From positions 32,079 to 96,078 of IMG/VR virus record IMGVR_UViG_3300032242_001655: a stretch of 64,000 nt of DNA; one strand, written 5' to 3'. Position 1 is the stretch's first letter, and every line of letters begins with the position of its first letter. The DNA is from a virus. Both the position numbers and the translations under genes were made by a program. Below the pieces are notes generated by a model, which did not search any database, was not told where the DNA came from, and saw only the letters and a list, made by a program, of their open reading frames with translations. Positions 3,013 through 41,769 of the stretch are shown piece after piece.

Positions 3013-3073
3013 ATAAATTGTCTGTTAAGCATCTTGGCATAGCCATGTTAGCAGTAATTGGGCGATGATTCTC

Positions 3074-3102
3074 TTGACAGATTCGTCAACGGTTAGTAAA
3101 AT
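3074..3102 (+). promoter_or_regulatory. Sigma70 promoter of the tmRNA gene
   Basis: TTGACA (3074-3079), a 17-base spacer, then TAAAAT (3097-3102). Transcription would begin near 3109, just before the acceptor half of the permuted tmRNA. Confidence 0.7.
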
Positions 3103-3108
3103 GTAAGT

Positions 3109-3360
3109 TATTGCTGTATGAAGCAAAGAGAAAAGTGTTCTGGACGCGAGTTCGAATCTCGCCATCTCCACCTAAATGTATTAAGGTATATTTAGGTGGG
3201 GATGAAAATGGTTTCGACAGGGCAACAAGTAATGGCGTGGACAGCAGAGTAGGCGATGACTCTAAATCAAGCAAAAAACGTAAATGCAAACGACGAACAG
3301 TTCGCTTTAGCCGCCTAAACTCGGCTTAGGGTAGGAAATACCTCGTAACAGAAATAACCA
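3109..3360 (+). ncRNA. ssrA: Circularly permuted tmRNA (two-piece ssrA)
   Basis: The 3' acceptor half comes first. A T-arm (GCGAG TTCGAAT CTCGC, 3146-3162) is followed by acceptor strand CATCTCC (3163-3169) and ACC. A short linker follows, then the 5' half starting GGGGATG at 3198 with TGGTTTCGACAGGG, as in the 5' end of bacterial tmRNA. The acceptor strands pair over 7 bp. The linker ends ACCTAAAT/ATTTAGGT (3170-3177, 3190-3197) extend that helix by 8 bp around a 12-base loop, as expected for a precursor that is cut into two pieces. The tag frame from 3286 reads ANDEQFALAA then TAA (3316-3318). The tag marks stalled products for ClpXP-type proteases and rescues ribosomes. The 5' boundary is set from the promoter; pseudoknots were not resolved. 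Confidence 0.92.
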
Positions 3361-3380
3361 GGGGCTACGGCCCCTTTCTT
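3361..3380 (+). terminator. Terminator of the tmRNA gene
   Basis: GGGGC-TACG-GCCCC hairpin with a stable UACG tetraloop, followed by TTTCTT. Confidence 0.75.
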
Positions 3381-3406
3381 ATCAGTTTTAAAAAGGATGA
3401 TTAAAA

Positions 3407-4324
3407 ATGGCAACAACAGTAACAATTGGGCAGACCCCAATTAACGCAACATATTCCCTAGTAGGGGGTGCAACAAATGGTGCAGGCGCTCAGGCAAAAT
3501 TCACTGTACAAAAAACAAATGGTGTATATGTAACCACCCTCGATTCAACTAATGGCGGTACAGGATATGCTCTTGGTGATACAGTTACCATTCCGGGCAC
3601 AAGCCTTGGTGGAACAGCCCCAGCCAATAACGATGTTATTATCGTTACTGGACTTGGTACAAATGGCGCAATTAAAACATTCGCCACAGCAGGTGTAGGT
3701 GCAATTGGTAATGGAACTATTAATACAGTTATTAATGTTACTCCAGATGTAGTTGCTCCAATTAACACATATGTTATGGGCGACAAAAGCGCCAACTTTA
3801 CAGTAGTTAACGATACAGCAAACAATGTTATCAGAGAAACCAGTGCTTTAAATTCTACTGTGAGTTTTAACCTAAATAACTACCAGCGTGTGGTATATAC
3901 AGATAAAGCAACCGCTTTTGATATTTCTGGTAAAGCAGGCGATGTTTATTCATTGCTTAAAGCAAGTTTTGGCGGAACGGTTAATACTACATACGAAGGT
4001 ATCGGTATTAAATTGGAAGATGCTGGCACAACCAGCGCACAAGTTGCTCAAGCAATTGTAACTAGTGCTCCATTCTTAACAGCAAATCCAGATATTCCTA
4101 CTTTTGTGAACAATCTGTATACCAATGTTATGGGAGTGGCTCCAACTCCAACTCAGGCAAGTCCGTATATTACTTCCTTAGTAACAGGTGGAACAACAAT
4201 GGGGGCTTTACTAAATGCGGCCGCTCATCTTACCACATATCAACAAACAATTGGTTTGGTAGGTGTTGCTCCAGCAACAACAGGCGTATTAGCCGGTTCA
4301 GGAATTGACTACATTCCAGCCTAA
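3407..4324 (+). CDS. Virion-type protein with DUF4214-like C-terminal region
   Basis: 305 aa, rich in Gly, Thr, Ala and Val, with an extended beta pattern and no Cys or catalytic motif. Residues 20-90 carry a repeat-like unit (NGVYVTTLDSTNGGTGYALGDTV, IPGTSLGG) seen in many marine phage structural proteins. Residues about 225-290 (FVNNLYTNVMGVAP...MGALLNAAAH) resemble DUF4214, a helical domain of secreted or surface proteins. The gene is a single unit between two terminators, with a clear AAGGATG ribosome site. A surface decoration or fibre role is inferred. Confidence 0.55.
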   Translation: MATTVTIGQTPINATYSLVGGATNGAGAQAKFTVQKTNGVYVTTLDSTNGGTGYALGDTVTIPGTSLGGTAPANNDVIIVTGLGTNGAIKTFATAGVGAIGNGTINTVINVTPDVVAPINTYVMGDKSANFTVVNDTANNVIRETSALNSTVSFNLNNYQRVVYTDKATAFDISGKAGDVYSLLKASFGGTVNTTYEGIGIKLEDAGTTSAQVAQAIVTSAPFLTANPDIPTFVNNLYTNVMGVAPTPTQASPYITSLVTGGTTMGALLNAAAHLTTYQQTIGLVGVAPATTGVLAGSGIDYIPA

Positions 4325-21093: not shown

Positions 21094-21396
21094 ATGGAAC
21101 AAGTTGACGTCAAAGAAATAGAAGAAATAGATATTGAGATTTTGAATCCAGGAAAATATAAAGTTGTGGTTCAAAACGATGATGTCACACCGATGGAGTT
21201 TGTTATTGCCATGCTGATACAGGTATTCAATCACTCCGAAGAACGTGCTAAAGATATAACACTACAAATTCACAACGATGGAGCAGGAGTCGCAGGCATA
21301 TTCAGTTATGAAGTAGCCGAGCAAAAGGGCATTGAGGGTACACTATTAGCCCGCCAACATGGTTGGCCCTTAGCAATTAAAATCGAGGAAGAATGA
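21094..21396 (+). CDS. clpS: ClpS adaptor protein
   Basis: 100 aa. KYKVVVQNDDVTPMEFVIAMLIQVFNHSEERAKDI then HNDGAGVAGIFSYEVAEQKG match ClpS, which binds N-degron substrates and delivers them to ClpA with ClpP. First gene of a four-gene operon; its stop overlaps the start of the ketoacyl synthase. With phage ClpX, Hsp20 and tmRNA it adds to a proteolysis set. Confidence 0.9.
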   Translation: MEQVDVKEIEEIDIEILNPGKYKVVVQNDDVTPMEFVIAMLIQVFNHSEERAKDITLQIHNDGAGVAGIFSYEVAEQKGIEGTLLARQHGWPLAIKIEEE

Positions 21397-22625
21397 AATT
21401 TGCAATTACCGGAATAGGAATCCTTAACGGATTAGGCTCCACGCTGGAAGAAAATTGGAGCAATCTATTAGCAGGTAAGTCTGCTATACAGGATATTGAG
21501 TGGCCCGAAGATAATCCTGACGTTCTTCCTTCTACCTGTAAAGGTATACAGATTAAAACTGGATTCCCTAGTCCCACTCCAGAATTTACACGAGACGAGT
21601 ACGATAATGAACACCGTCATTGGTCACGTTCTACCAAAATGACTATATATACTGGCACCCAAGCCTATAAGGATAGTGGCCTTACTTCTAAAAACGTGGG
21701 AGTATTTTTTACAACTACTGTTGGGCAAATGGAAGCCAACAACAAAATTATGAAGGCTATTGACAAAGGCCGTGAAAAATACAGCCCTAAACAAATATTG
21801 AATGGTAGTAATGCGTACGGTAGTGAACAGGTACAGAAATATTTAAAACTAGAAGGTCCTAGTGGATCAATACACACTGCCTGTGCCACAGGAATCTACC
21901 TACTTGATTACGGAATAAAGACACTGATGACAGATCCGGATCTAGATGCTGTAATGATCGGATGCAGTGACAGTTGCTTTCAACCATTTGTCTTTTATTA
22001 TTTTCAAAATCTTAATGCGCTGAGTCGCCAACCTGCGGAAGAGGCATGTAAACCATTTGATGTTAATAGATCCGGATTTGTGTTAGGTGAAGGATCTTGT
22101 GCTTACATTATAGAACCTCTAGAAAAAGCAGTTGCCCGAGGTGCATATATCTACGGACTAGTATTAGGTACAGGTATTTCTGGCTCAGGAGTATTTGACA
22201 CAGAACCCGATCCCACTGGTCATACACAAAGATTAGCAGTGAATAAGGCACTCCGTAATGCCCGTGTAGATCCAGAAGATATCGATTATATTAATGCTCA
22301 TGCTACAGGCACACCAGTTGGTGATGAGTTAGAATACAATCTCATGAATGAAATGTTCCATGGTAAAGTCATGGTAAGTAATAAAGGACAAATAGGACAT
22401 ACATTAGGAGTTTGTTCTGTGATAGAGTTAATCTATACTATAATGGCTCTTAAAGAGCAACGCACACCGCCTAATGTAAATTTAACAACACCAGTAGGTG
22501 CCGGAATGCAGTTGCCCACGACTGAAACCAAGATATACGCAAAGTATGCTCTAAAGAATAGTTTTGCGTTTGGAGGACGTTCAGCCTGTGCTGTATTAGC
22601 AAAATATGATGGAGAAACAAAATGA
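21393..22625 (+). CDS. Beta-ketoacyl-ACP synthase (FabF-like)
   Basis: 410 aa thiolase-fold KAS II. Active-site Cys in HTACATG (near residue 165), His in NAHATGTPVGD (near 305) and Lys/His in NKGQIGHTLG (near 330), the Cys-His-His triad of elongating condensing enzymes. Glycine-rich end SFAFGGRSACAVL also fits. Would condense malonyl-ACP with an acyl group. No ACP or acyltransferase is seen beside it. It is coupled to a heme oxygenase, so its role is uncertain: membrane lipid supply or a pigment-linked acyl chain. Confidence 0.85.
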   Translation: MKFAITGIGILNGLGSTLEENWSNLLAGKSAIQDIEWPEDNPDVLPSTCKGIQIKTGFPSPTPEFTRDEYDNEHRHWSRSTKMTIYTGTQAYKDSGLTSKNVGVFFTTTVGQMEANNKIMKAIDKGREKYSPKQILNGSNAYGSEQVQKYLKLEGPSGSIHTACATGIYLLDYGIKTLMTDPDLDAVMIGCSDSCFQPFVFYYFQNLNALSRQPAEEACKPFDVNRSGFVLGEGSCAYIIEPLEKAVARGAYIYGLVLGTGISGSGVFDTEPDPTGHTQRLAVNKALRNARVDPEDIDYINAHATGTPVGDELEYNLMNEMFHGKVMVSNKGQIGHTLGVCSVIELIYTIMALKEQRTPPNVNLTTPVGAGMQLPTTETKIYAKYALKNSFAFGGRSACAVLAKYDGETK

Positions 22626-32495: not shown

Positions 32496-32570
32496 GGTCT
32501 CAAAGTGTTCATGGACGCACACGAGCCTGTCACGCTCGAAGAAGGGGATCGTTACCCCTTGGGACCGCCA
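32496..32570 (+). tRNA. tRNA-Asp(GUC)
   Basis: Cloverleaf with acceptor GGTCTCA/TGGGACC, anticodon stem CGAGC/GCTCG, loop CTGTCAC (GUC) and CCA encoded. T-loop is ATCGTTA rather than TTCGANT. Confidence 0.85.
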
Positions 32571-32576
32571 AATTAT

Positions 32577-32651
32577 TCCCTAGTAGATCAGAGGTAGATC
32601 AGCGGACTGTTAATCCGTGTGTCGGTGGTTCGATCCCACCCTGGGGAGCCA
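32577..32651 (+). tRNA. tRNA-Asn(GUU)
   Basis: Acceptor TCCCTAG/CTGGGGA, loop CTGTTAA (GUU), T-arm GGTGG TTCGATC CCACC, CCA encoded. Confidence 0.9.
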
Positions 32652-32655
32652 AACA

Positions 32656-32731
32656 TGGGCTGTTAGTGATAATGGGAGCACGGGGGCTTTGCAAGCCTTA
32701 GGTGGGAGTTCGATCCTCCCACGGTCCACCA
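32656..32731 (+). tRNA. tRNA-Ala(UGC)
   Basis: Anticodon loop TTTGCAA (UGC), T-arm GTGGGAG TTCGATC CTCCCAC, CCA encoded. Acceptor stem contains several G-U pairs. Confidence 0.85.
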
Positions 32732-32736
32732 AGTTT

Positions 32737-32811
32737 GCCGAGGTAGCTCAGAGGAAGAGCAATGTGTTGATAACGCATAGGTCGAGATTTCAAAATTCTC
32801 CCTCGGTACCA
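32737..32811 (+). tRNA. tRNA-Ile(GAU)
   Basis: Acceptor GCCGAGG/CCTCGGT, anticodon loop TTGATAA (GAU), CCA encoded. Confidence 0.85.
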
Positions 32812-32815
32812 GTTT

Positions 32816-32892
32816 GGGACGGTAACTCAGTTGGCTAGAGTATCGGTCTTTTAAACCGAGAGTCGCGGGTTCGAATCCCGCTCGTCCTACCA
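32816..32892 (+). tRNA. tRNA-Lys(UUU)
   Basis: Acceptor GGGACGG/TCGTCCT, loop CTTTTAA (UUU) on stem TCGGT/ACCGA, T-arm GCGGG TTCGAAT CCCGC, CCA encoded. Confidence 0.9.
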
Positions 32893-32900
32893 ATGTTTGT

Positions 32901-32974
32901 TGGCTTATGGTGAAATGGTATCACAACGGATTTTGATTCCGTCGTTCTTGGTTCGATCCCAAGTAGGCCTGCCA
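32901..32974 (+). tRNA. tRNA-Gln(UUG)
   Basis: Loop TTTTGAT (UUG) on ACGGA/TCCGT, T-arm CTTGG TTCGATC CCAAG, CCA encoded. First acceptor pair is U-U, as weak as the usual U-A of tRNA-Gln. Overlapped antisense by the 65-aa gene. Confidence 0.85.
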
Positions 32975-33118
32975 ATTAGTTAGAGTAAATGTATTTTCTA
33001 CCGTAGGATAAGATTCTAGAAATTCTTTAGAAGTAGTCCAAGAAGTTCTTGGAACATAGGAAGATTTGCTGAGATTATACAACATTTTGTATTCAGTATA
33101 GTCATCTTCAAATTTCAT
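32921..33118 (-). CDS. Small protein antisense to tRNA-Gln, 65 aa
   Basis: Minus-strand ATG at 33118 lies 5 bases after a perfect CATAAATA box, which strongly supports it as a real, leaderless gene. Reads MKFEDDYTEYKMLYNLSKSS...; the last 18 residues run through the tRNA-Gln gene on the opposite strand. Family not recognised. Confidence 0.5.
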   Translation of the reverse strand: MKFEDDYTEYKMLYNLSKSSYVPRTSWTTSKEFLESYPTVENTFTLTNWQAYLGSNQERRNQNPL

Positions 33119-33123
33119 AATAA

Positions 33124-33131
33124 TATTTATG
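33124..33131 (-). promoter_or_regulatory. Late-type box CATAAATA on the minus strand, 5 bases before ATG
   Basis: Minus-strand CATAAATA, spacer TTATT, ATG at 33118. The box touches base 1 of tRNA-Met on the other strand. Confidence 0.55.
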
Positions 33132-33205
33132 GTAATGTAGCATAATGGAAGTGCCCCGCCTTCATACGGCGTCCAGTGTAGGTTCGACTCCTACCATTAC
33201 CACCA
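33131..33205 (+). tRNA. tRNA-Met(CAU)
   Basis: Acceptor GGTAATG/CATTACC, loop TTCATAC (CAU), T-arm GTAGG TTCGACT CCTAC, ACCA encoded. It has a paired first base pair, so an elongator; a lysidine-type tRNA-Ile(CAU) cannot be excluded. Confidence 0.8.
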
Positions 33206-33206
33206 T

Positions 33207-33295
33207 GGAGGGTTATCTGGGCTGGGCCCAGCTCTGTCTTGAAAACAGAAGGTTCGCGAAAGCGGATAGAGTTCGATTCTACTAGCCCTCCTCCA
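33207..33295 (+). tRNA. tRNA-Ser(UGA)
   Basis: Class II. Loop CTTGAAA (UGA) on TCTGT/ACAGA, long variable arm, acceptor GGAGGGT/GCCCTCC, CCA encoded. Confidence 0.85.
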
Positions 33296-33302
33296 TATAT
33301 AC

Positions 33303-33310
33303 ATTAAATA
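33303..33310 (+). promoter_or_regulatory. Late-type box ATTAAATA, 5 bases before ATG
   Basis: ATTAAATA, TCCAG, ATG at 33316; no ribosome site. Confidence 0.5.
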
Positions 33311-33315
33311 TCCAG

Positions 33316-33927
33316 ATGCAATATTGGTTATTTTTCTGGGGCGGTACAGGTGGTGATGGACTTAGCAATCTGCTAGAACATGCTGACAATCTAGAACCCT
33401 GTGATGGAATAAAACGATGGCGTACTAGAAATACTCCATCAGGTAAGATTGCGTTCCATGGGCCTAGGTTTTCTAACGTACCATCACTGTTTAGAAATCA
33501 TCAAGGATTTGATATGAGCAAAATTCATTTGCTCAAGCACTATGTAGATTTAATAGAACAAGGAAAGAATACAGTTATTCCTGCACATCCGTGGCCTTAT
33601 AATGATTTTCTTTCTAAGTTTCCACAAAGAGATATCATTGAAAAAGATCAACACAAAATTCTGTTATACTCAAATGATATGGATAGAATAGTTACAGACT
33701 TTATAGATAAGAATCCTACTAGTGAAAAGGCCAAACAAGAATTAATTAGATCAATTGCTGGGAAAAATGTCCTTAAGGATTCGCCTAAATTAGGATATCA
33801 AACATACATTGATATGGATAAAGTTTGGAAAGATTGGGATTACCTAAATAACATCCTAACTGGTATAGGAATTAATTTAGATAGAGTGTATTATGAAGAA
33901 TACTTAAATGTATCAAAGAAAAGATAA
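33316..33927 (+). CDS. Uncharacterised protein, possible sulfotransferase-like
   Basis: 203 aa between tRNA genes. Starts MQYWLFFWGGTGGDGLSNLLEHAD: a hydrophobic strand then a Gly-rich loop, as in the PAPS-binding loop of sulfotransferases, but without further confirming motifs. DMSKIHLLKHY and a FIDKNPTSEKAK stretch follow. Leaderless late promoter. Function uncertain. Confidence 0.4.
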   Translation: MQYWLFFWGGTGGDGLSNLLEHADNLEPCDGIKRWRTRNTPSGKIAFHGPRFSNVPSLFRNHQGFDMSKIHLLKHYVDLIEQGKNTVIPAHPWPYNDFLSKFPQRDIIEKDQHKILLYSNDMDRIVTDFIDKNPTSEKAKQELIRSIAGKNVLKDSPKLGYQTYIDMDKVWKDWDYLNNILTGIGINLDRVYYEEYLNVSKKR

Positions 33928-33928
33928 A

Positions 33929-34018
33929 GGAGCGGTGGCCGAACGGTAAGGCAGTAGATTGCTAATCTATACAACGTGTTAAAGCGTTGACTGGGTTCGA
34001 CTCCCAGTCGCTCCGCCA
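33929..34018 (+). tRNA. tRNA-Ser(GCU)
   Basis: Class II. Loop TTGCTAA (GCU) on GTAGA/TCTAT, variable arm CAACG/CGTTG, acceptor GGAGCGG/TCGCTCC, GCCA encoded. Starts one base after the upstream stop. Confidence 0.9.
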
Positions 34019-34023
34019 AATTA

Positions 34024-34097
34024 GCCCTATTAGTACAATGGCAGTACAGCGGTTTTGTAATCCGTTGATGGCAGTTCGATTCTGTCATGGGGCACCA
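34024..34097 (+). tRNA. tRNA-Thr(UGU)
   Basis: Acceptor GCCCTAT/ATGGGGC, loop TTTGTAA (UGU), CCA encoded. Top of the anticodon stem has a mismatch. Confidence 0.8.
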
Positions 34098-34101
34098 ATT
34101 T

Positions 34102-34175
34102 ACCTCGTTCGTCTAATGGTAGGGCCGCGCCTTTACACGGCGCAGACGGCAGTTCGATTCTGTCACGAGGTACCA
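34102..34175 (+). tRNA. tRNA-Val(UAC)
   Basis: Acceptor ACCTCGT/ACGAGGT perfect, loop TTTACAC (UAC) on GCGCC/GGCGC, CCA encoded. Confidence 0.9.
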
Positions 34176-34189
34176 TAGACTGTTTAGGT

Positions 34190-34264
34190 GTGACCTTAGT
34201 GTTAGCGGTTAGCACCACGGATTGTGATTCCGTTAGGATGGATTCGAATTCCATAGGTCACCCC
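34190..34264 (+). tRNA. tRNA-His(GUG)
   Basis: Acceptor GTGACCT/AGGTCAC, loop TTGTGAT (GUG) on ACGGA/TCCGT. The 3' end is CCC then T, so CCA is not encoded, and the -1 base is T rather than the usual G. Confidence 0.8.
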
Positions 34265-34289
34265 TGAGCAGTTTTGTAAATAGAATTAA

Positions 34290-34366
34290 CGGTGTGTAGC
34301 TCAGCCTGGTAGAGCTCTTGGTTTGGGACCAAGTGGTCGCATGTTCGAATCGTGTCACACCGACCA
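34290..34366 (+). tRNA. tRNA-Pro(UGG)
   Basis: Acceptor CGGTGTG/CACACCG, loop TTTGGGA (UGG) on CTTGG/CCAAG, ACCA encoded. Confidence 0.9.
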
Positions 34367-34380
34367 TATAAAGGAATATT

Positions 34381-34653
34381 ATGTCAAAAGTAAGAGCAAG
34401 CCATATTTTAGTCATGTCATTAAATGAAGCAGTTAACATCCATGAACAAATTTCAAATGGTGTTAGTTTTGAAACATTGGCTCAACAAAATAGTAAGTGC
34501 CCTAGCGGACGCAATGGCGGAGACCTAGGCGAGTTTGGACGCGGACAAATGGTTAAGCCATTTGAAGATGCCGCATTTGGGTTAAATGTAGGAAGTCTCA
34601 GTGACCCAATCAAAACACAATTTGGGTATCACCTCATCAAGCGTACTGCCTAA
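34381..34653 (+). CDS. Parvulin-type peptidyl-prolyl isomerase
   Basis: 90 aa, a single PpiC/parvulin domain. VRASHILVMS (residues 4-13) supplies the catalytic-site His, FETLAQQNSKCPSGRNGGDLGEFGRGQMVKPFEDAAF is the diagnostic mid region and FGYHLIK the second His. Speeds proline isomerisation in the cytoplasm. Downstream gene starts 2 bases after its stop. Confidence 0.92.
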   Translation: MSKVRASHILVMSLNEAVNIHEQISNGVSFETLAQQNSKCPSGRNGGDLGEFGRGQMVKPFEDAAFGLNVGSLSDPIKTQFGYHLIKRTA

Positions 34654-34654
34654 C

Positions 34655-35659
34655 ATGTTAAACTACACCTTACACGAAAACGGTTGGACGGTGTTGTTAG
34701 GTAACTTTGATTTTAAAAATACTACACAACAAGATGCAGATGAAATTGCTCGACTAGTTTCTACCAATGTAGCAGTTGTAGCACAGGGTAGTAATATTGA
34801 AAATATGACTCCAGAAGATCAGGTTCGGTTCTGCTCAATGATAGGTAACCTTGAAGAATATCATAATGACACAGCATGGGGTCGTGCTATTGCTCTAAGT
34901 ACTGATAACATCGGAAATAAGATCCAACGTGTTACAGGTGCGGCAAATGAAGAAGGACATCCTGGTTTATTTGGACATGACGAAGAATTAGATTGGCACA
35001 ATAATACTCCCTGGGACATGAGACGCAAGCCCGCTGTATTTTTAAAATCAATCAGCGGAGCAGAAGGTAGTAGAACAAGTTGGACTAACACACAGTTGGC
35101 TTACCGTGATCTTAAACTTGAAGACCCTGCATTTGTTCAAGAATTAGAAGAACAGAATTATCGTGTAGTTTGTGGTTGGCACAAAGAAGGTGGTCATACA
35201 ACAATGTATAACTACTGGCATGATCAGGGACATTTTCCAGATGAAGTAGAATCTGAAGAAACTGCTATGCCATTGGTCTTTACTAATGAAACAGGTTGTA
35301 AAGGATTTTTCTTACCATATCTACAAGCACATAGATTATTCGGCTTGACAAGAGAAGAAAGTTTGCCTATACTTAAACGAGTATGGGATTATTGCTTACA
35401 AGAAAAATACATTTATCATCATGATTGGCTACCCGGGGGTAGCGAGATAGTGTTTGCCGAGCAATGGCTATCTACACATAAGCGTTGGGAGTTTGATAAA
35501 ATGAAAACTCGTTTTATGGAAAGATCAGCAGTTGACTATGTAAACACTTCATGGTGGCCAGATGTAAAGAAAACATTTAGAAAACAGATAACAGACATAA
35601 TAAGACAGAATAATGTAGAGATGGCAGAGCGGCAAATGCAACGGATTGCAAATCCGTAA
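34655..35659 (+). CDS. TauD/TfdA-like oxygenase fold
   Basis: 334 aa from ATG at 34655. LDWHNNTPWDMRRKPAVFLKSISGAEGSRTSWTN matches the TauD layout (W-H-x-D...S...GG-x-T) but the H-x-D Asp is Asn here (HNN). The distal His is in LSTHKRWEF with Arg following. If the Asp is really lost, activity is doubtful or altered; halogenase-type relatives change this residue to Gly or Ala. The last 15 codons extend 44 bases into the tRNA-Cys gene. Confidence 0.65.
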   Translation: MLNYTLHENGWTVLLGNFDFKNTTQQDADEIARLVSTNVAVVAQGSNIENMTPEDQVRFCSMIGNLEEYHNDTAWGRAIALSTDNIGNKIQRVTGAANEEGHPGLFGHDEELDWHNNTPWDMRRKPAVFLKSISGAEGSRTSWTNTQLAYRDLKLEDPAFVQELEEQNYRVVCGWHKEGGHTTMYNYWHDQGHFPDEVESEETAMPLVFTNETGCKGFFLPYLQAHRLFGLTREESLPILKRVWDYCLQEKYIYHHDWLPGGSEIVFAEQWLSTHKRWEFDKMKTRFMERSAVDYVNTSWWPDVKKTFRKQITDIIRQNNVEMAERQMQRIANP

Positions 35660-35691
35660 AACCGTGGGTTCGAGTCCCACTCTCTATTCCA
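35616..35691 (+). tRNA. tRNA-Cys(GCA)
   Basis: Loop TTGCAAA (GCA) on ACGGA/TCCGT, T-arm GTGGG TTCGAGT CCCAC, CCA encoded. Acceptor pairing is 6 bp. The upstream gene ends inside it. Confidence 0.85.
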
Positions 35692-35693
35692 GG

Positions 35694-35700
35694 TTAAATA
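35694..35700 (+). promoter_or_regulatory. Late-type box TTAAATA before tRNA-Gly
   Basis: TTAAATA three bases after tRNA-Cys and 9 bases before tRNA-Gly. Confidence 0.3.
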
Positions 35701-35708
35701 TATGCGAT

Positions 35709-35782
35709 GCGGGATTAGTTTAATGGTAAAACGAGATCCTTCCAAGTTCAAGTCAGCGGTTCGATTCCGCTATCCCGCTCCA
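35709..35782 (+). tRNA. tRNA-Gly(UCC)
   Basis: Acceptor GCGGGAT/ATCCCGC with T and CCA, loop CTTCCAA (UCC), T-arm AGCGG TTCGATT CCGCT. Only three of five anticodon-stem pairs form, unlike host tRNA-Gly. Confidence 0.75.
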
Positions 35783-35796
35783 AGTTAAAGGTTATC

Positions 35797-36516
35797 ATGA
35801 ATATTGGATATTTTGGTCATAGTACAGTAGGTGACGATACTAATGGAAAAGAAGGGTCATTTATTATCGATGTTGCTAAGTTTTTTAATGCACAAATTGT
35901 AAATGTAGGAACTGGTCAAGGTTCTGAAGAACGTATTTTATTTGATCTTAAAAAATGCAGACACATAGATGTTGCTGTGATATTTCACAGCAGACCTCAG
36001 AGTTTGTTTATTCCTAATTGTAAAATGGATTTTAATATTTCTGAGGATCCAGATCGCAAAGCAGAGATACTTTGGAGTCAGGAATTGATTTTACAAATGA
36101 CTCCTCCTGCGGAAAACGAAGATCAGATGTATACAGAAAAATATAAAGAAAGTCTTCAATACAGAAAGAACTTTTCGTCTGTGTTCAAAACTCCTCAGGA
36201 TTTTGCCACATGTCTAAAGAATTTTAAAAAATATCTTTATCATCAGGATCTGCAACAAAACAGGTTCGAAGGTGCACTAACATTGATAGATCAATACTGT
36301 GCGGCGAGAGTTCCTATTGTAGTCCATTCAATTGATAAAAAACGACTACCTGCCTGGTGGACTGGGTTTAAGTCTGGAGTACTAGGCGAGGAATTGAATG
36401 TAATTGAAAATCAATATAGACAAACTAGTCAACCAAATTGTCTAAACCCAGAAGGACATAAACGAATGGGTGCTGAGGTAATTAGACTTATTCTTGAACA
36501 GATGGAAAAAAGATAA
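35797..36516 (+). CDS. Uncharacterised protein, possible SGNH-type hydrolase
   Basis: 239 aa. GYFGHSTVGDDTNGKEGSFI at the start and LNPEGHKRMGAEV at the end sit where SGNH hydrolases carry block I and the final Asp-x-x-His, though the Ser block is unclear. VIFHSRPQSLF is a strand-loop. Family assignment weak. Ribosome site AAAGG. Confidence 0.35.
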   Translation: MNIGYFGHSTVGDDTNGKEGSFIIDVAKFFNAQIVNVGTGQGSEERILFDLKKCRHIDVAVIFHSRPQSLFIPNCKMDFNISEDPDRKAEILWSQELILQMTPPAENEDQMYTEKYKESLQYRKNFSSVFKTPQDFATCLKNFKKYLYHQDLQQNRFEGALTLIDQYCAARVPIVVHSIDKKRLPAWWTGFKSGVLGEELNVIENQYRQTSQPNCLNPEGHKRMGAEVIRLILEQMEKR

Positions 36517-36525
36517 CTAGTTGAT

Positions 36526-36614
36526 GCAGGTCGTGGCAGAGTGGTCAAATGCGCCCGGTCGTAAATCGGGTGACCTTTAAGGTCTACGGAGGTTCGAATC
36601 CCCCATCTGCTCCA
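36526..36614 (+). tRNA. Class II tRNA, anticodon GUA (Tyr) most likely
   Basis: Acceptor GCAGGT/(C)ATCTGC, anticodon stem CCCGG/TCGGG with loop TCGTAAA (GUA), variable arm GACCTT/AAGGTC, T-arm, CCA encoded. Base 33 is C instead of the near-invariant U. Confidence 0.6.
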
Positions 36615-36619
36615 ATTTT

Positions 36620-36694
36620 CGGTCTTTGGTGAAATGGATATCATTCTTGTCTTCGAAACAAGAGGTGTGGGTTCGATTCCTGCAAGACCGGCCA
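36620..36694 (+). tRNA. tRNA-Arg(UCG)
   Basis: Acceptor CGGTCTT/AAGACCG, loop CTTCGAA (UCG) on CTTGT/ACAAG, GCCA encoded. Confidence 0.9.
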
Positions 36695-36695
36695 A

Positions 36696-36998
36696 TTATA
36701 CAGTATAAGTTGTAGAAGTGGTAATAATATTGTTTTCTAAATTATATTGGTACCTCATAATTTGTTCAGGTTGAGATAATCTCCAATTTTTAAAATCATC
36801 TAAAGATGCTTGATCTTCAAAAATACGAGTTTCAATTGCTGTGTTTACATCAGGATTTTCAATATTCCATCCAATGGCTTTAGGCCCATTATAATTCTTA
36901 ATATTAGATATCATAGTTTGCACAACATCAGGGTGTACGTCTCTAAACCAAACAACATTCTCTGGTTTTCGAGAAATAGTTTTTTCAACAATCGCCAT
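36696..36998 (-). CDS. Small phage protein, 100 aa
   Basis: Start at ATG 36998 (MAIVEKTISRKPENVVWFRDVHPD), preferred over a TTG 12 bases earlier because GGAG precedes it. Alpha/beta, with an IKNYNGPKAIGWNIENPD stretch. Lies between tRNA-Arg and tRNA-Phe on the other strand. Not recognised; its own TATAAATA promoter supports it. Confidence 0.55.
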   Translation of the reverse strand: MAIVEKTISRKPENVVWFRDVHPDVVQTMISNIKNYNGPKAIGWNIENPDVNTAIETRIFEDQASLDDFKNWRLSQPEQIMRYQYNLENNIITTSTTYTV

Positions 36999-37022
36999 AC
37001 AGTTCTCCAAGTAATTAATTAT

Positions 37023-37030
37023 TATTTATA
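37023..37030 (-). promoter_or_regulatory. T4-type late promoter TATAAATA (minus)
   Basis: Exact TATAAATA on the minus strand, 24 bases before the 100-aa gene ATG; GGAG site follows. Confidence 0.6.
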
Positions 37031-37040
37031 TACTTTTTTT

Positions 37041-37116
37041 GCCAATTTAGCAAATGTGGTCATTGCGGCGGACTGAAAATCCGTGGAACCTGGTTCGATC
37101 CCGGGAGTTGGCACCA
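37041..37116 (+). tRNA. tRNA-Phe(GAA)
   Basis: Acceptor GCCAATT/AGTTGGC, loop CTGAAAA (GAA) on GCGGA/TCCGT, ACCA encoded. Confidence 0.9.
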
Positions 37117-37138
37117 TGTTGTATTTTTGCTACATGTA

Positions 37139-37167
37139 TTGACACAGGCAATAAATGCCTGTATAAT
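37139..37167 (+). promoter_or_regulatory. Perfect sigma70 promoter with operator-like repeat before initiator tRNA
   Basis: TTGACA (37139-37144), 17 bases, TATAAT (37162-37167). The spacer is a perfect inverted repeat, ACAGGCA-ATAAA-TGCCTGT (37144-37162), which touches both boxes. Confidence 0.75.
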
Positions 37168-37181
37168 TGATATTAAGTTAG

Positions 37182-37255
37182 CGCGGGATAGAGTAGTGGT
37201 TACTCATGGGTCTCATAAGCCCACCAGGTAGGTTCGATTCCTGCTCCCGCAACCA
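37182..37255 (+). tRNA. Initiator tRNA-fMet(CAU)
   Basis: C1-A72 mismatch (CGCGGGA/TCCCGCA), anticodon stem TGGGT/GCCCA with the three G-C pairs next to loop CTCATAA (CAU). ACCA encoded. These are the hallmarks of the bacterial initiator. Confidence 0.92.
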
Positions 37256-37258
37256 ACT

Positions 37259-37334
37259 GTCCCGTTCGTCTAGAGGCCTAGGACATCACCCTTTCACGGT
37301 GAGTACACCAGTTCGAATCTGGTACGGGACGCCA
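37259..37334 (+). tRNA. tRNA-Glu(UUC)
   Basis: Acceptor GTCCCGT/ACGGGAC, loop CTTTCAC (UUC) on TCACC/GGTGA, GCCA encoded. Confidence 0.9.
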
Positions 37335-37517
37335 TTAGTTGAGAGCATTCACGAGGTATTGTGTATGGACGCATACACTAGGCGGGCTGGTCGGGCCATC
37401 GATAAGTCCTAATATAACTCGGGCAATGGCTTATGAGAGGATCGCGCCCTCACTCAGAAATACGCTCAGCCTGTAAGGCTGTCGAGTGTTTTCAACTAAT
37501 GGTAAGTAATGTATTAC
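37335..37517 (+). other. Gene-less structured stretch between tRNAs
   Basis: 183 bases with no credible gene. Hairpins visible: GTGTATG-GACG-CATACAC, CAGCC-TGTAA-GGCTG inside a CACTC/GAGTG helix, and GC-rich pairing near 37380-37400. Possibly a folded RNA or a relic of lost tRNA genes. Not identified. Confidence 0.3.
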
Positions 37518-37594
37518 GCCCCGGTGACGGAATTGGTATACGTGTTGGTCTTAGAAGCCAAATTTTAGGAGTTCGAGTCTCCTCTGGGGCACCA
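37518..37594 (+). tRNA. tRNA-Leu(UAG) lacking the long variable arm
   Basis: Acceptor GCCCCGG/CTGGGGC, leucine-type D-arm (GGAATTGGTATACGTG), loop CTTAGAA (UAG) on TTGGT/GCCAA. The variable region is only about 5 bases, whereas bacterial tRNA-Leu has a class II arm. ACCA encoded. Confidence 0.8.
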
Positions 37595-37595
37595 A

Positions 37596-37669
37596 GTCTC
37601 TTTAGTATAATGGCAGTACTGCGGTCTCCAAAACCGTTAGTGGGGGTTCGAGTCCCTCAGGGGACGCCA
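37596..37669 (+). tRNA. tRNA-Trp(CCA)
   Basis: Loop CTCCAAA (CCA) on GCGGT/ACCGT, acceptor GTCTCTT/AGGGGAC with G-U pairs, T-arm GGGGG TTCGAGT CCCTC, GCCA encoded. Confidence 0.88.
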
Positions 37670-37685: not shown

Positions 37686-38150
37686 ATGCCAAAATGTTAT
37701 CAATTAGTCGGAGTTCCCGGCAGTGGAAAATCTACATGGGCTAATAGTCAAGAATGGTTTCTTGAATGTGACTGCATATCTACAGATAAGTTCGTGGACG
37801 CTTATGCTCATGATACTGGTAGAACTTACTCAGAAGTGTTTGACGAAATTATGCCAAAGGCTGTTGACTTGATGGCAAAAGAAGTTGTTGTTGCACAAAA
37901 AGCAGGACGAGATATAATTTGGGATCAAACATCGACTACAATTGCTAGCCGTAAAAAGAAGTTTAATATGTTGCCCGATTATGAACATATTGCTGTGGTA
38001 TTCAAAACACCAGATCATGAGGAACTAGTGCGTAGATTAAAAGGCCGAATAGGCAAAGTTATTCCTTGGGAAGTCATAGAAAGTATGATTAAGAATTTTG
38101 AAATGCCCACAGAACAAGAAGGGTTTAAGGAGATCTGGTTTACTGGTTGA
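37686..38150 (+). CDS. P-loop kinase, polynucleotide-kinase-like
   Basis: 154 aa. GVPGSGKST (residues 9-17) is the Walker A loop, DCISTDKFVD supplies the Asp of the kinase site, and IIWDQTSTTIASRKKK and ELVRRLKGRIGK give the lid Arg/Lys region. The layout is like the kinase half of T4 Pnk, without a phosphatase half. Could phosphorylate 5' ends of nucleic acid or a small molecule. Follows the tRNA run, compatible with tRNA-end repair. Confidence 0.75.
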   Translation: MPKCYQLVGVPGSGKSTWANSQEWFLECDCISTDKFVDAYAHDTGRTYSEVFDEIMPKAVDLMAKEVVVAQKAGRDIIWDQTSTTIASRKKKFNMLPDYEHIAVVFKTPDHEELVRRLKGRIGKVIPWEVIESMIKNFEMPTEQEGFKEIWFTG

Positions 38151-38175
38151 CAAAGTGGTAAATTTTTGTTATAAT
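38147..38175 (+). promoter_or_regulatory. Perfect sigma70 promoter TTGACA-17-TATAAT
   Basis: TTGACA (38147-38152) overlaps the kinase stop; TATAAT is at 38170-38175. Drives the phosphoesterase at 38202. Confidence 0.8.
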
Positions 38176-38201: not shown

Positions 38202-38804
38202 ATGCCAAGCGTATTTTTAGTAAGCGACACGCACTTTGGTCATGCTGGTGTATGTCACTTCACACACGAGAACACAGGAGTTAAAATCCGTCCATGGACT
38301 GATCCAGATGAAATGGATGAGGCTATGGTAAAATTGTGGAATGACCGTGTCAAGCCAACTGACAAAGTCTACCATTTAGGAGATGTTGTCATTAACCGTA
38401 AGGCATTAAAAATAATGTCAAGATTAAATGGTGACAAAGTGTTAATTCGTGGCAACCATGATATCTTCAAAGACGAGGACTACAGACAATACTTTCGTGA
38501 ATTACGTGCCTACCACGTTATGAACGGAATGATATTAAGTCATATTCCAGTTCATGCAGATAGTTTAGGTCGCTTTGGAGTTAACATTCACGGTCACTTA
38601 CACACTCGCCGTGTTAAAAAAGCAAGAGGCGTTGATGCTCGTACAGGAGAAGTCTTATACAGCGATGAGCCCGATGTTAGATATCACTGCGTATGTGTAG
38701 AGCAAACAGACTTTGCCCCAATTTTATTCGAAGACGTTATCCGTCGTATCGAAGCAGAAGGTGGTGTAGTTGGATTTCAAAAGGGAAACGGGCCTACAAT
38801 GTAG
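38202..38804 (+). CDS. Calcineurin-type metallophosphoesterase
   Basis: 200 aa. SDTHFGHAG (residues 7-15), HLGDVV, IRGNHDIF, SHIPVH and NIHGHLHTR give all five metal-binding motifs, in the compact form common in phages. Third phosphoesterase of the window. With the adjacent kinase it could make a kinase/phosphatase pair. The ribosome site AAAGGAG is strong. Confidence 0.8.
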   Translation: MPSVFLVSDTHFGHAGVCHFTHENTGVKIRPWTDPDEMDEAMVKLWNDRVKPTDKVYHLGDVVINRKALKIMSRLNGDKVLIRGNHDIFKDEDYRQYFRELRAYHVMNGMILSHIPVHADSLGRFGVNIHGHLHTRRVKKARGVDARTGEVLYSDEPDVRYHCVCVEQTDFAPILFEDVIRRIEAEGGVVGFQKGNGPTM

Positions 38805-38817
38805 GCTCGTTTTTTTA
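38789..38817 (+). terminator. Terminator overlapping the phosphoesterase stop
   Basis: ACGGGCCTAC (38789-38798) with GTAGGCTCGT (38802-38811), then T run to 38817. Confidence 0.8.
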
Positions 38818-39058
38818 AGTAGGGAACTTAAAACGCAAAAAGTGTGCCGAAAGGGTTTTGGATGCAGGCCGGAAGCCAGTATCTGGATAGTGTTGTAAAC
38901 ACTCGCATCGGTTGAAGCAACGGGTCAACAGACTGGCTGTTGTGGAGTGATCCGTGAGCGTTCCATGTTTCCTGGACAAGAGAGAGCGGGGGCTGTTGTC
39001 TCCGGGCGGGCAAGGATATCACTTTCGTGGACCAAAACTCTCATAAGTTCCCTACTTA
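38817..39058 (+). ncRNA. Candidate structured RNA closed by a 15-bp perfect inverted repeat
   Basis: TAAGTAGGGAACTTA (38817-38831) pairs perfectly with TAAGTTCCCTACTTA (39044-39058), framing about 210 bases without a convincing gene. Inside are AGTGTT-GTA-AACACT, CCAG-TAT-CTGG, CAACAG-ACTGG-CTGTTG and a GATGC/GCATC helix enclosing the first two. The base composition is richer in G and C than the neighbours. It lies between a terminator and the QueC-like gene end, with which it overlaps 3 bases. Transcribed strand unknown; no match to a known RNA class was recognised. Confidence 0.55.
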
Positions 39059-39682
39059 AAATGTATAGTTAATATCAAATTCGTAGCGTTCACGAGGTGA
39101 GGTTTGAGGATCAAGGTATCCGCATTTATCAAATGCCCATGCTCTTTCTTTGCAGTGCCAACATTCGTCACACACCTTATCATCCGGTGTTTCGCATGAA
39201 TATGCAATTTTCATTAGGTCAATAAGATCACAATCAATGGCTTCTTGTACTATATAGTCTTTGGTTAATTCTATCCATGGCTGAGCATATCTAGCCAATT
39301 TCATTGATTGCCGTCTTGGTCCTATTTCTATTTCTTTTGGATTTTTAGTATCGCCTAATACAAATACTTCTATATCATCATCGGAGGCTTCTCTCAATCC
39401 GCTTATTACCTGTAGGGTATGATGGACTTTATCTGTGCCTACTTTATTAATAGTATAACTGATTCCAAACTTGTCATTAATCCAATCCAATATATTCTGT
39501 GTACGAACTAGACTGTTGTTTGGACGATCCACTGTATATACTTTGAATTCATTGTTAGTTTTTAGTTCTTCTCTTAGAGCATGTACTAGATATATTAATA
39601 GGCCGCTATCTAAACCTCCGGAAACAAATAGTCCAATTTTCCTGTTATTTTGTAGTATTTTTTTGATTGGCTCTCTTATCAT
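39056..39682 (-). CDS. QueC-like ATP-pyrophosphatase
   Basis: 208 aa starting at 39682. LFVSGGLDSGLL (near residue 19) is the PP-loop that binds ATP. SCETPDDKVCDECWHCKERAWAF near the C-terminus is the Cys cluster of 7-cyano-7-deazaguanine synthase QueC (zinc site). QueC makes preQ0; phage copies can serve 7-deazaguanine DNA modification. No QueD, QueE, FolE or DpdA is seen in the window. The late box TTAAATA with 5-base spacing fixes the start. Confidence 0.65.
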   Translation of the reverse strand: MIREPIKKILQNNRKIGLFVSGGLDSGLLIYLVHALREELKTNNEFKVYTVDRPNNSLVRTQNILDWINDKFGISYTINKVGTDKVHHTLQVISGLREASDDDIEVFVLGDTKNPKEIEIGPRRQSMKLARYAQPWIELTKDYIVQEAIDCDLIDLMKIAYSCETPDDKVCDECWHCKERAWAFDKCGYLDPQTSPRERYEFDINYTF

Positions 39683-39687
39683 AAAAA

Positions 39688-39694
39688 TATTTAA
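39688..39694 (-). promoter_or_regulatory. Late-type box TTAAATA (minus), 5 bases before ATG
   Basis: Minus-strand TTAAATA, spacer TTTTT, ATG at 39682. Confidence 0.5.
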
Positions 39695-39702
39695 CCTTCT
39701 AG

Positions 39703-39731
39703 TTGACAGCACTGGTTTTTTCATGTATAAT
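39703..39731 (+). promoter_or_regulatory. Perfect sigma70 promoter with leaderless spacing
   Basis: TTGACA (39703-39708), 17 bases, TATAAT (39726-39731); lipoprotein ATG 6 bases on, at 39738. Confidence 0.8.
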
Positions 39732-39737
39732 AAAAAC

Positions 39738-41694: not shown

Positions 41695-41769
41695 CTGGCC
41701 ATAGTTCAACGGATAGAACAATCGCCTTCTAAGCAATCAATCCAGGTTCGATTCCTGGTGGCTGGACCA
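41695..41769 (+). tRNA. tRNA-Arg(UCU)
   Basis: Acceptor CTGGCCA/TGGCTGG with two G-U pairs, loop CTTCTAA (UCU), T-arm CCAGG TTCGATT CCTGG, ACCA encoded. Anticodon stem has one mismatch. Confidence 0.82.

Follow-up and report, generated by a model that had tools for sequence, protein, structure and literature searches.

A structured RNA family of phage tRNA arrays, closed by a long terminal helix and with a covarying kissing loop

In phage T4, rnaC and rnaD (species 1 and 2) encode small stable RNAs from the tRNA region whose role is unknown (PMC3014915), and the ROOL and GOLLD RNAs of phages and prophages, also of unknown function, are often found near tRNA islands and contain pseudoknots and kissing loops (PMC12286853). 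Here we describe a phage RNA, designated RNA-A, from a 64,000-nt stretch (the window) of the IMG/VR virus record IMGVR_UViG_3300032242_001655. RNA-A meets the test of being phage-encoded near tRNA islands and shares extensive structure and kissing loops with ROOL and GOLLD, although those RNAs are much longer, with many GOLLD members over 800 nt. At the level of sequence comparison, the RNA-A family, its fold and its tRNA-array context are firmly established. Our preferred interpretation, to which we give a probability of about 0.75, is that RNA-A represents a new phage RNA family of ~245 nt that serves as a stable trans-acting scaffold made together with the tRNAs; its transcription, excision, action in trans and partner are all inferred.

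A sequence-only reading of the window had proposed a structured RNA of about 242 nt at 38817-39058, closed by a perfect 15-bp terminal helix. The inverted repeat is real and perfect, but it is 18 bp long, with 38813-38830 pairing to 39044-39061 across 213 nt; the proposed bounds were off by one in register and three to four pairs too short, the true ends being 38813 and 39061. The claim of a new structured RNA passed the check suggested for it, covariation with homologues, in that homologues were found and compensatory changes are abundant; its size had to be corrected, to 249 nt. Several other observations also held: the interior is GC-richer (~0.49 for RNA-A, 0.39 in the surrounding 2 kb), the ORFs inside are only short and overlapping so that the interval has no gene, a hairpin with a T7 tract, read directly in the sequence, ends just 5' of RNA-A, and a minus-strand gene has its stop codon (39056-39058) within the 3' arm. 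The 18-bp helix alone is only suggestive and could be luck, because an 18-bp spaced inverted repeat also turned up in one of 40 first-order shuffled versions of the complete window; the 242 nt had only a moderate folding advantage over shuffles (z = -2.83 on the plus strand, -1.89 on the minus strand). The window sequence by itself left the case undecided, and it is homology and covariation that, within the sequences compared, put RNA-A beyond chance.

An exact-pattern scan identified a near relative of the window RNA-A, L084, at 95% identity; between the two loci, RNA-A and the kinase and phosphoesterase genes are 94% identical and the next gene 74%. Exact-pattern scans with window k-mers otherwise gave chance matches only, and L278 was rejected as a homologue, being a chance pattern match. 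A covariance model built from the two near-identical sequences of the window and L084 (R1) was searched against 45 virus records, i.e. 44 in which the phosphoesterase gene has a relative and that of L084 itself, and gave four further full-length matches (E 1e-5 to 3e-4); the R1 fold was partly wrong, yet these four distant copies were detected. A block conserved among them, CCAUGUU...AGAGC...CUGU, was then used as a pattern in IMG/VR scans. Model R2, with an explicit structure, was built from L246, L217, L232 and L247 only, leaving the window sequence out, and recovers the window copy over its full length at 38813-39061 on the plus strand (108.9 bits, E ~1e-36) and the remaining copies with matching ends. 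RNA-A is thereby present in 27 virus contigs, the window and 26 others, the homologues all being metagenomic virus contigs, and the final alignment, A12, comprises 20 distinct sequences. If a full-length R2 match with the terminal helix and the kissing loop kept is taken as the test for the new family, the window copy meets it. A blastn search of phages and plasmids gave chance or tRNA matches only, and R2 found no RNA-A copy in T4, AerS_266, CBB and XbC2, nor in eight annotated phages picked via the phosphoesterase gene or tRNA similarity. In two records holding a full-length RNA-A, R2 also gave a second, weak match (97 nt, 15.9 bits; L046:7591-7687 and L239:7551-7647), which could be a decayed or shortened relative.

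The RNA-A fold consists of 12 helices, with P3 in two segments. Its parts in the window, together with the two pseudoknots, are as follows.

38813..39061, plus strand: whole RNA-A, 249 nt (R2 end-to-end match)
38813..38830, plus strand: 5' arm of the terminal helix P1, perfect over 18 bp, pairs with 39044-39061
39044..39061, plus strand: 3' arm of P1, perfect over 18 bp (covariation)
38832..38836, plus strand: 5' arm of P1b, AACGC, pairs with GCGUU at 38958-38962 (both-side changes at 5 of 6 pairs)
38842..38844, plus strand: 5' arm of P2, pairs with 38904-38906 (98.9% of cells paired, both-side changes at 5 of 5)
38847..38854, plus strand: P2b hairpin CC-GAAA-GG with a GNRA loop (alignment, covariation)
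38857..38887, plus strand: P3, a long hairpin with the nearly invariant loop CGGAA at 38870-38874 (alignment, covariation)
38889..38903, plus strand: P4 hairpin, loop region GUUGUAAAC (99% of cells paired, both-side changes at 4 of 5)
38917..38943, plus strand: P5a/P5b hairpin (alignment, covariation)
38926..38931, plus strand: CAACAG of the P5b loop, one strand of the kissing loop (complement CUGUUG at 38993-38998)
38962..38969, plus strand: highly conserved UCCAUGUU between P1b and P6 (alignment)
38971..39010, plus strand: P6 (38971-38974 with 39007-39010), enclosing AGAG and P7 (covariation, alignment)
38983..38986, plus strand: pseudoknot 2 strand AGAG, pairs with CUCU at 39038-39041 (both-side changes, few sequences)
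38987..38990 with 39001..39004, plus strand: P7, inside P6
38993..38998, plus strand: kissing-loop partner CUGUUG in the P7 loop (loop-loop covariation)
39019..39030, plus strand: P8 hairpin UCAC-UUUC-GUGG (both-side changes at 3 of 4 pairs)
39031..39037, plus strand: unpaired conserved ACCAAAA, 3' of P8 (alignment)

Among the homologues, P1 has both-side changes at 17 of 17 model pairs, P1b occurs as AGUAUC/GAUACU and AGUAC/GUACU, and P6, which is CCUG/CGGG in the window, reads GCUA/UAGC or GCGA/UCGC. P2 closes a four-way junction with P2b, P3 and P4; both P2 and P2b are short in the window copy, and the P2b loop is GUAA or GCAA in many homologues. The outer half of P3 is the least well paired helix (77.6%), and the P4 loop, with the consensus GUURUARAC, looks T-loop-like by inspection. 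Of the internal hairpins in a minimum-free-energy fold only some are right, since the conserved fold contains a four-way junction and two pseudoknots. For the window RNA-A this fold comes to -72.3 kcal/mol against a computed minimum of -89.3 kcal/mol, without pseudoknot energies, and the minimum-free-energy fold of the window sequence alone is misleading. A pairing of the 3' ACUCUC with the 5' arm of P2 was dropped, since a partner after P4 fits the sequences better.

In the 11 sequences outside the R2 training set, 93.5% of cells pair, compared with 66.4% when shuffled and 36-43% when slid; both-side changes are found at 62 of the 69 pairs, for a covariation score of 0.804, compared with 0.291 +/- 0.018. 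With all 20 distinct sequences, the respective values are 93.9%, 64 of 69 and 0.782. It should be kept in mind that the sequences are related and that the alignment, being fitted to the model, leans to the model structure; relatedness is preserved in the slid control, whereas the fitting bias is not. The alignment has 147 G-U cells to 9 A-C cells, an excess that places RNA-A on the tRNA strand, and its encoding on the plus strand is strongly supported as far as an alignment can tell. The kissing loop is free of the fitting problem, because the P5b-P7 pairing is absent from the model and was found afterwards. The two loops are complementary in nearly all RNA-A sequences, with pairs such as CUUACAG/CUGUAAG in L247, UUUUCAG/CUGAAAA in L270 and GUUAAUAGC/GCUAUUAAC in L269, and the mean longest Watson-Crick run is 6.75 with a loop's own partner versus 4.89 with the partners of other sequences; the own-partner sum was reached in 0 of 10000 permutations, which ignore relatedness. 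In L251 and L276 the AGAG-CUCU pseudoknot has G-C replaced by A-U through changes in both strands, and in L257 it is GAAG/CUUC, but an extra U in L217 and L246 disturbs the pairing, and from the aligned sequences its support appears weaker than that of the kissing loop. An all-pairs covariation scan brought up other pairs, many of them coincidental, and only the two run-forming pseudoknots were kept.

The window tRNA array holds 21 tRNAs at 32496-37669, with a further tRNA-Arg at 41695, and in both the window and L084 RNA-A is found ~1.15 kb downstream of tRNA-Trp, from which two protein genes separate it. Its immediate surroundings in the window are the following.

38147..38175, plus strand: sigma-70 promoter TTGACA-17-TATAAT with TG (12 of 12 consensus matches; consensus match only)
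38202..38804, plus strand: calcineurin-like phosphoesterase gene, directly 5' of RNA-A (Pfam PF00149, PHROG 547)
38789..38816, plus strand: terminator-like hairpin cgggcctac-aat-gtaggctcg followed by T7 (read directly; same in L084)
39056..39736, minus strand: QueC/PP-loop-like gene, convergent, with its stop inside the P1 3' arm (Pfam PF06508, PHROG 1550)

The promoter reads through the phosphoesterase gene toward RNA-A. The terminator-like hairpin of the upstream gene is outside the RNA-A family, its T-tract being overlapped by the outer U-run of P1, and it was not listed by the consensus scan; a pattern scan of IMG/VR gave no relatives of the QueC-like neighbour gene. Elsewhere in the window there is a tmRNA (3060-3409, plus strand; tag ANDEQFALAA by ARAGORN) whose best Rfam match is the betaproteobacterial type, which may hint at the host of the phage, a tRNA-Sec match within the tRNA array (33207-33291, plus strand; 48.3 bits against a gathering score of 47) not called by ARAGORN, and a beta-ketoacyl synthase gene with both domains (21393-22622, plus strand; Pfam E 5e-31 and 3e-28).

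Most RNA-A homologues directly adjoin tRNA genes, with gaps of 0-9 nt. In L247 a tRNA-Leu lies 1 nt 5' and a tRNA-Arg at the RNA-A end, in L218 a tRNA-Met lies 2 nt 5' and a tRNA-Cys 3 nt 3', in L257 the flanks are tRNA-Met and tRNA-Arg, and about half of the distinct copies have a tRNA-Gly(gcc) within a few nt 3'; in L252 the nearest tRNA is several hundred nt away. The tRNAs beside RNA-A thus vary by phage (Gly, Arg, Cys, Met, Leu, Pro), which argues for a trans-acting RNA and against a cis element of one gene.

The same array contains RNA-B, a second structured RNA of 171 nt (37332-37502, plus strand) between tRNA-Glu and tRNA-Leu. Like RNA-A, it is structured and has a long terminal helix (18-19 bp); it differs in its length of 168-171 nt, in its conserved sequence and in its fold, and has a model of its own, R3. 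Built from six sequences, R3 detects copies in seven other virus records, including two matches outside its training set (L271, E 6e-19; L246, E 1.6e-10), and the position of RNA-B is unchanged in L246, where tRNA-Glu and tRNA-Leu(tag) flank it. Both-side changes occur at 28 of 45 pairs in seven distinct sequences; five of the seven also served to train R3. RNA-B has no Rfam match and is a second new RNA family, and it occurs together with RNA-A in at least five records (the window, L084, G026, L271 and L246). We also noted an unannotated 297-nt gap from tRNA-Leu to tRNA-Asn in Aeromonas phage AerS_266 (L264:604-900; OR496884.1 148664-148960), which folds far better than shuffles (z -4.3) and is neither RNA-A nor RNA-B; possibly it is another tRNA-array RNA, in this case in a phage of a cultured host.

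That RNA-A is a real functional RNA is very likely, even in the absence of expression data. Because it lies inside the tRNA gene array in other phages, it is most likely co-transcribed with the tRNAs and then freed by the nucleases that process them, RNase P cutting at the following tRNA and endo- and exonucleases acting after the preceding tRNA. The copies of the window and L084, having no adjacent tRNA and a terminator-like hairpin 5', would need read-through or a promoter of their own. In the proposed molecule, the 18-bp P1 would shut and protect the ends, P1b would hold the four-way junction of P2 with the GNRA hairpin, the CGGAA-loop hairpin and the T-loop-like hairpin, and the kissing loop and the AGAG-CUCU pseudoknot would compact the 3' half. 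The folded RNA would most likely be a stable scaffold, acting in trans for a protein, a tRNA or the ribosome during infection; this role is an inference from likeness to T4 RNA C and D and to ROOL and GOLLD.

Other explanations start from the same features. We regard it as a tentative possibility that RNA-A is a new class of compact, tertiary-folded RNA, made with the tRNAs, whose kissing loop and conserved loops form either an assembly of RNA alone or a particle that is catalytic or binds tRNA. In another and rather improbable reading, RNA-A would be a homo-oligomer, with P5b-P7 joining separate copies into a ring or cage; ROOL and GOLLD, phage RNAs often near tRNA islands, are indeed assembled by intermolecular kissing loops (PMC12286853), and the loop-loop covariation is compatible with pairing within or between molecules, but RNA-A, at ~245 nt, is no more than about half as long as ROOL, matches ROOL and GOLLD neither in sequence nor by model, and comes with no oligomer data. 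A ribozyme or tRNA-handling RNA, such as one by which the phage assists tRNA processing, whose active or binding site would be made up of P4, T-loop-like, and the conserved single strands, could be read from the association with tRNA arrays and from the strong conservation of the unpaired UCCAUGUU, ACCAAAA, CGGAA and GUURUARAC; we find this doubtful, as RNase P, tmRNA, group I introns and self-cleaving ribozymes in Rfam give no match and no conserved cleavage position was seen.

It also seems unlikely that RNA-A is no separate RNA but merely a cis-acting element of the tRNA operon (processing signal, attenuator or terminator). It does sit in transcribed arrays with ends that coincide with tRNA ends, but the flanking tRNAs vary among phages, the window and L084 copies lie between protein genes away from tRNAs, the 3' end has no U-tract, and 12 helices with a loop-loop pairing far exceed what a processing signal needs. 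A perfect terminal inverted repeat could in principle bound a mobile unit, whether insertion element, intron or retron-type locus, and a match to an insertion element would have refuted the original proposal; there is no sign of one, RNA-A being present once in the 96-kb uncultured virus record, without flanking direct repeats, and with none of the neighbouring proteins tested being a reverse transcriptase or transposase. The retron msr-msd test likewise gave no adjacent reverse transcriptase, the neighbours being a P-loop kinase, the phosphoesterase and the QueC-like protein. Since the repeat covaries as an RNA helix, which contradicts a mobile unit, this explanation can be set aside almost completely.

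The comparison with known RNA classes that the sequence-only reading had called for gave no Rfam family matching RNA-A. Gathering scores were reached by tRNA and tmRNA-type families alone in the window, and by tRNAs alone across eight homologous loci; scans at permissive settings yielded no credible hit, RNA-A did not match the Rfam models of tmRNA, RNase P RNA, 6S and group I intron, and the ROOL and GOLLD models matched neither the window nor those eight loci. As far as Rfam 15, INPHARED, PLSDB and the open literature that could be searched go, RNA-A has not been described before. Undescribed RNA families are thus present in tRNA arrays of uncultured phages, this one window containing two, and the RNA-A model can be used on all phage genomes. 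In the whole T4 record, R2 gave no significant match (best E 0.95, outside rnaC and rnaD), and an unfiltered scan over rnaD reached ~5 bits; by these model searches T4 RNA C and D are not homologous to RNA-A. The likeness is one of setting: rnaC and rnaD also specify stable RNAs of the tRNA region, rnaD 1 nt from a tRNA gene, but at 139 and 119 nt, compared with the 249 nt of RNA-A. T4 has long provided examples of stable non-coding RNAs from a phage tRNA region, with roles still unknown, and the widespread RNA-A family, whose fold is well determined, whose ends are defined and for which a covariance model exists, offers a concrete object on which the roles of such RNAs can be tested.
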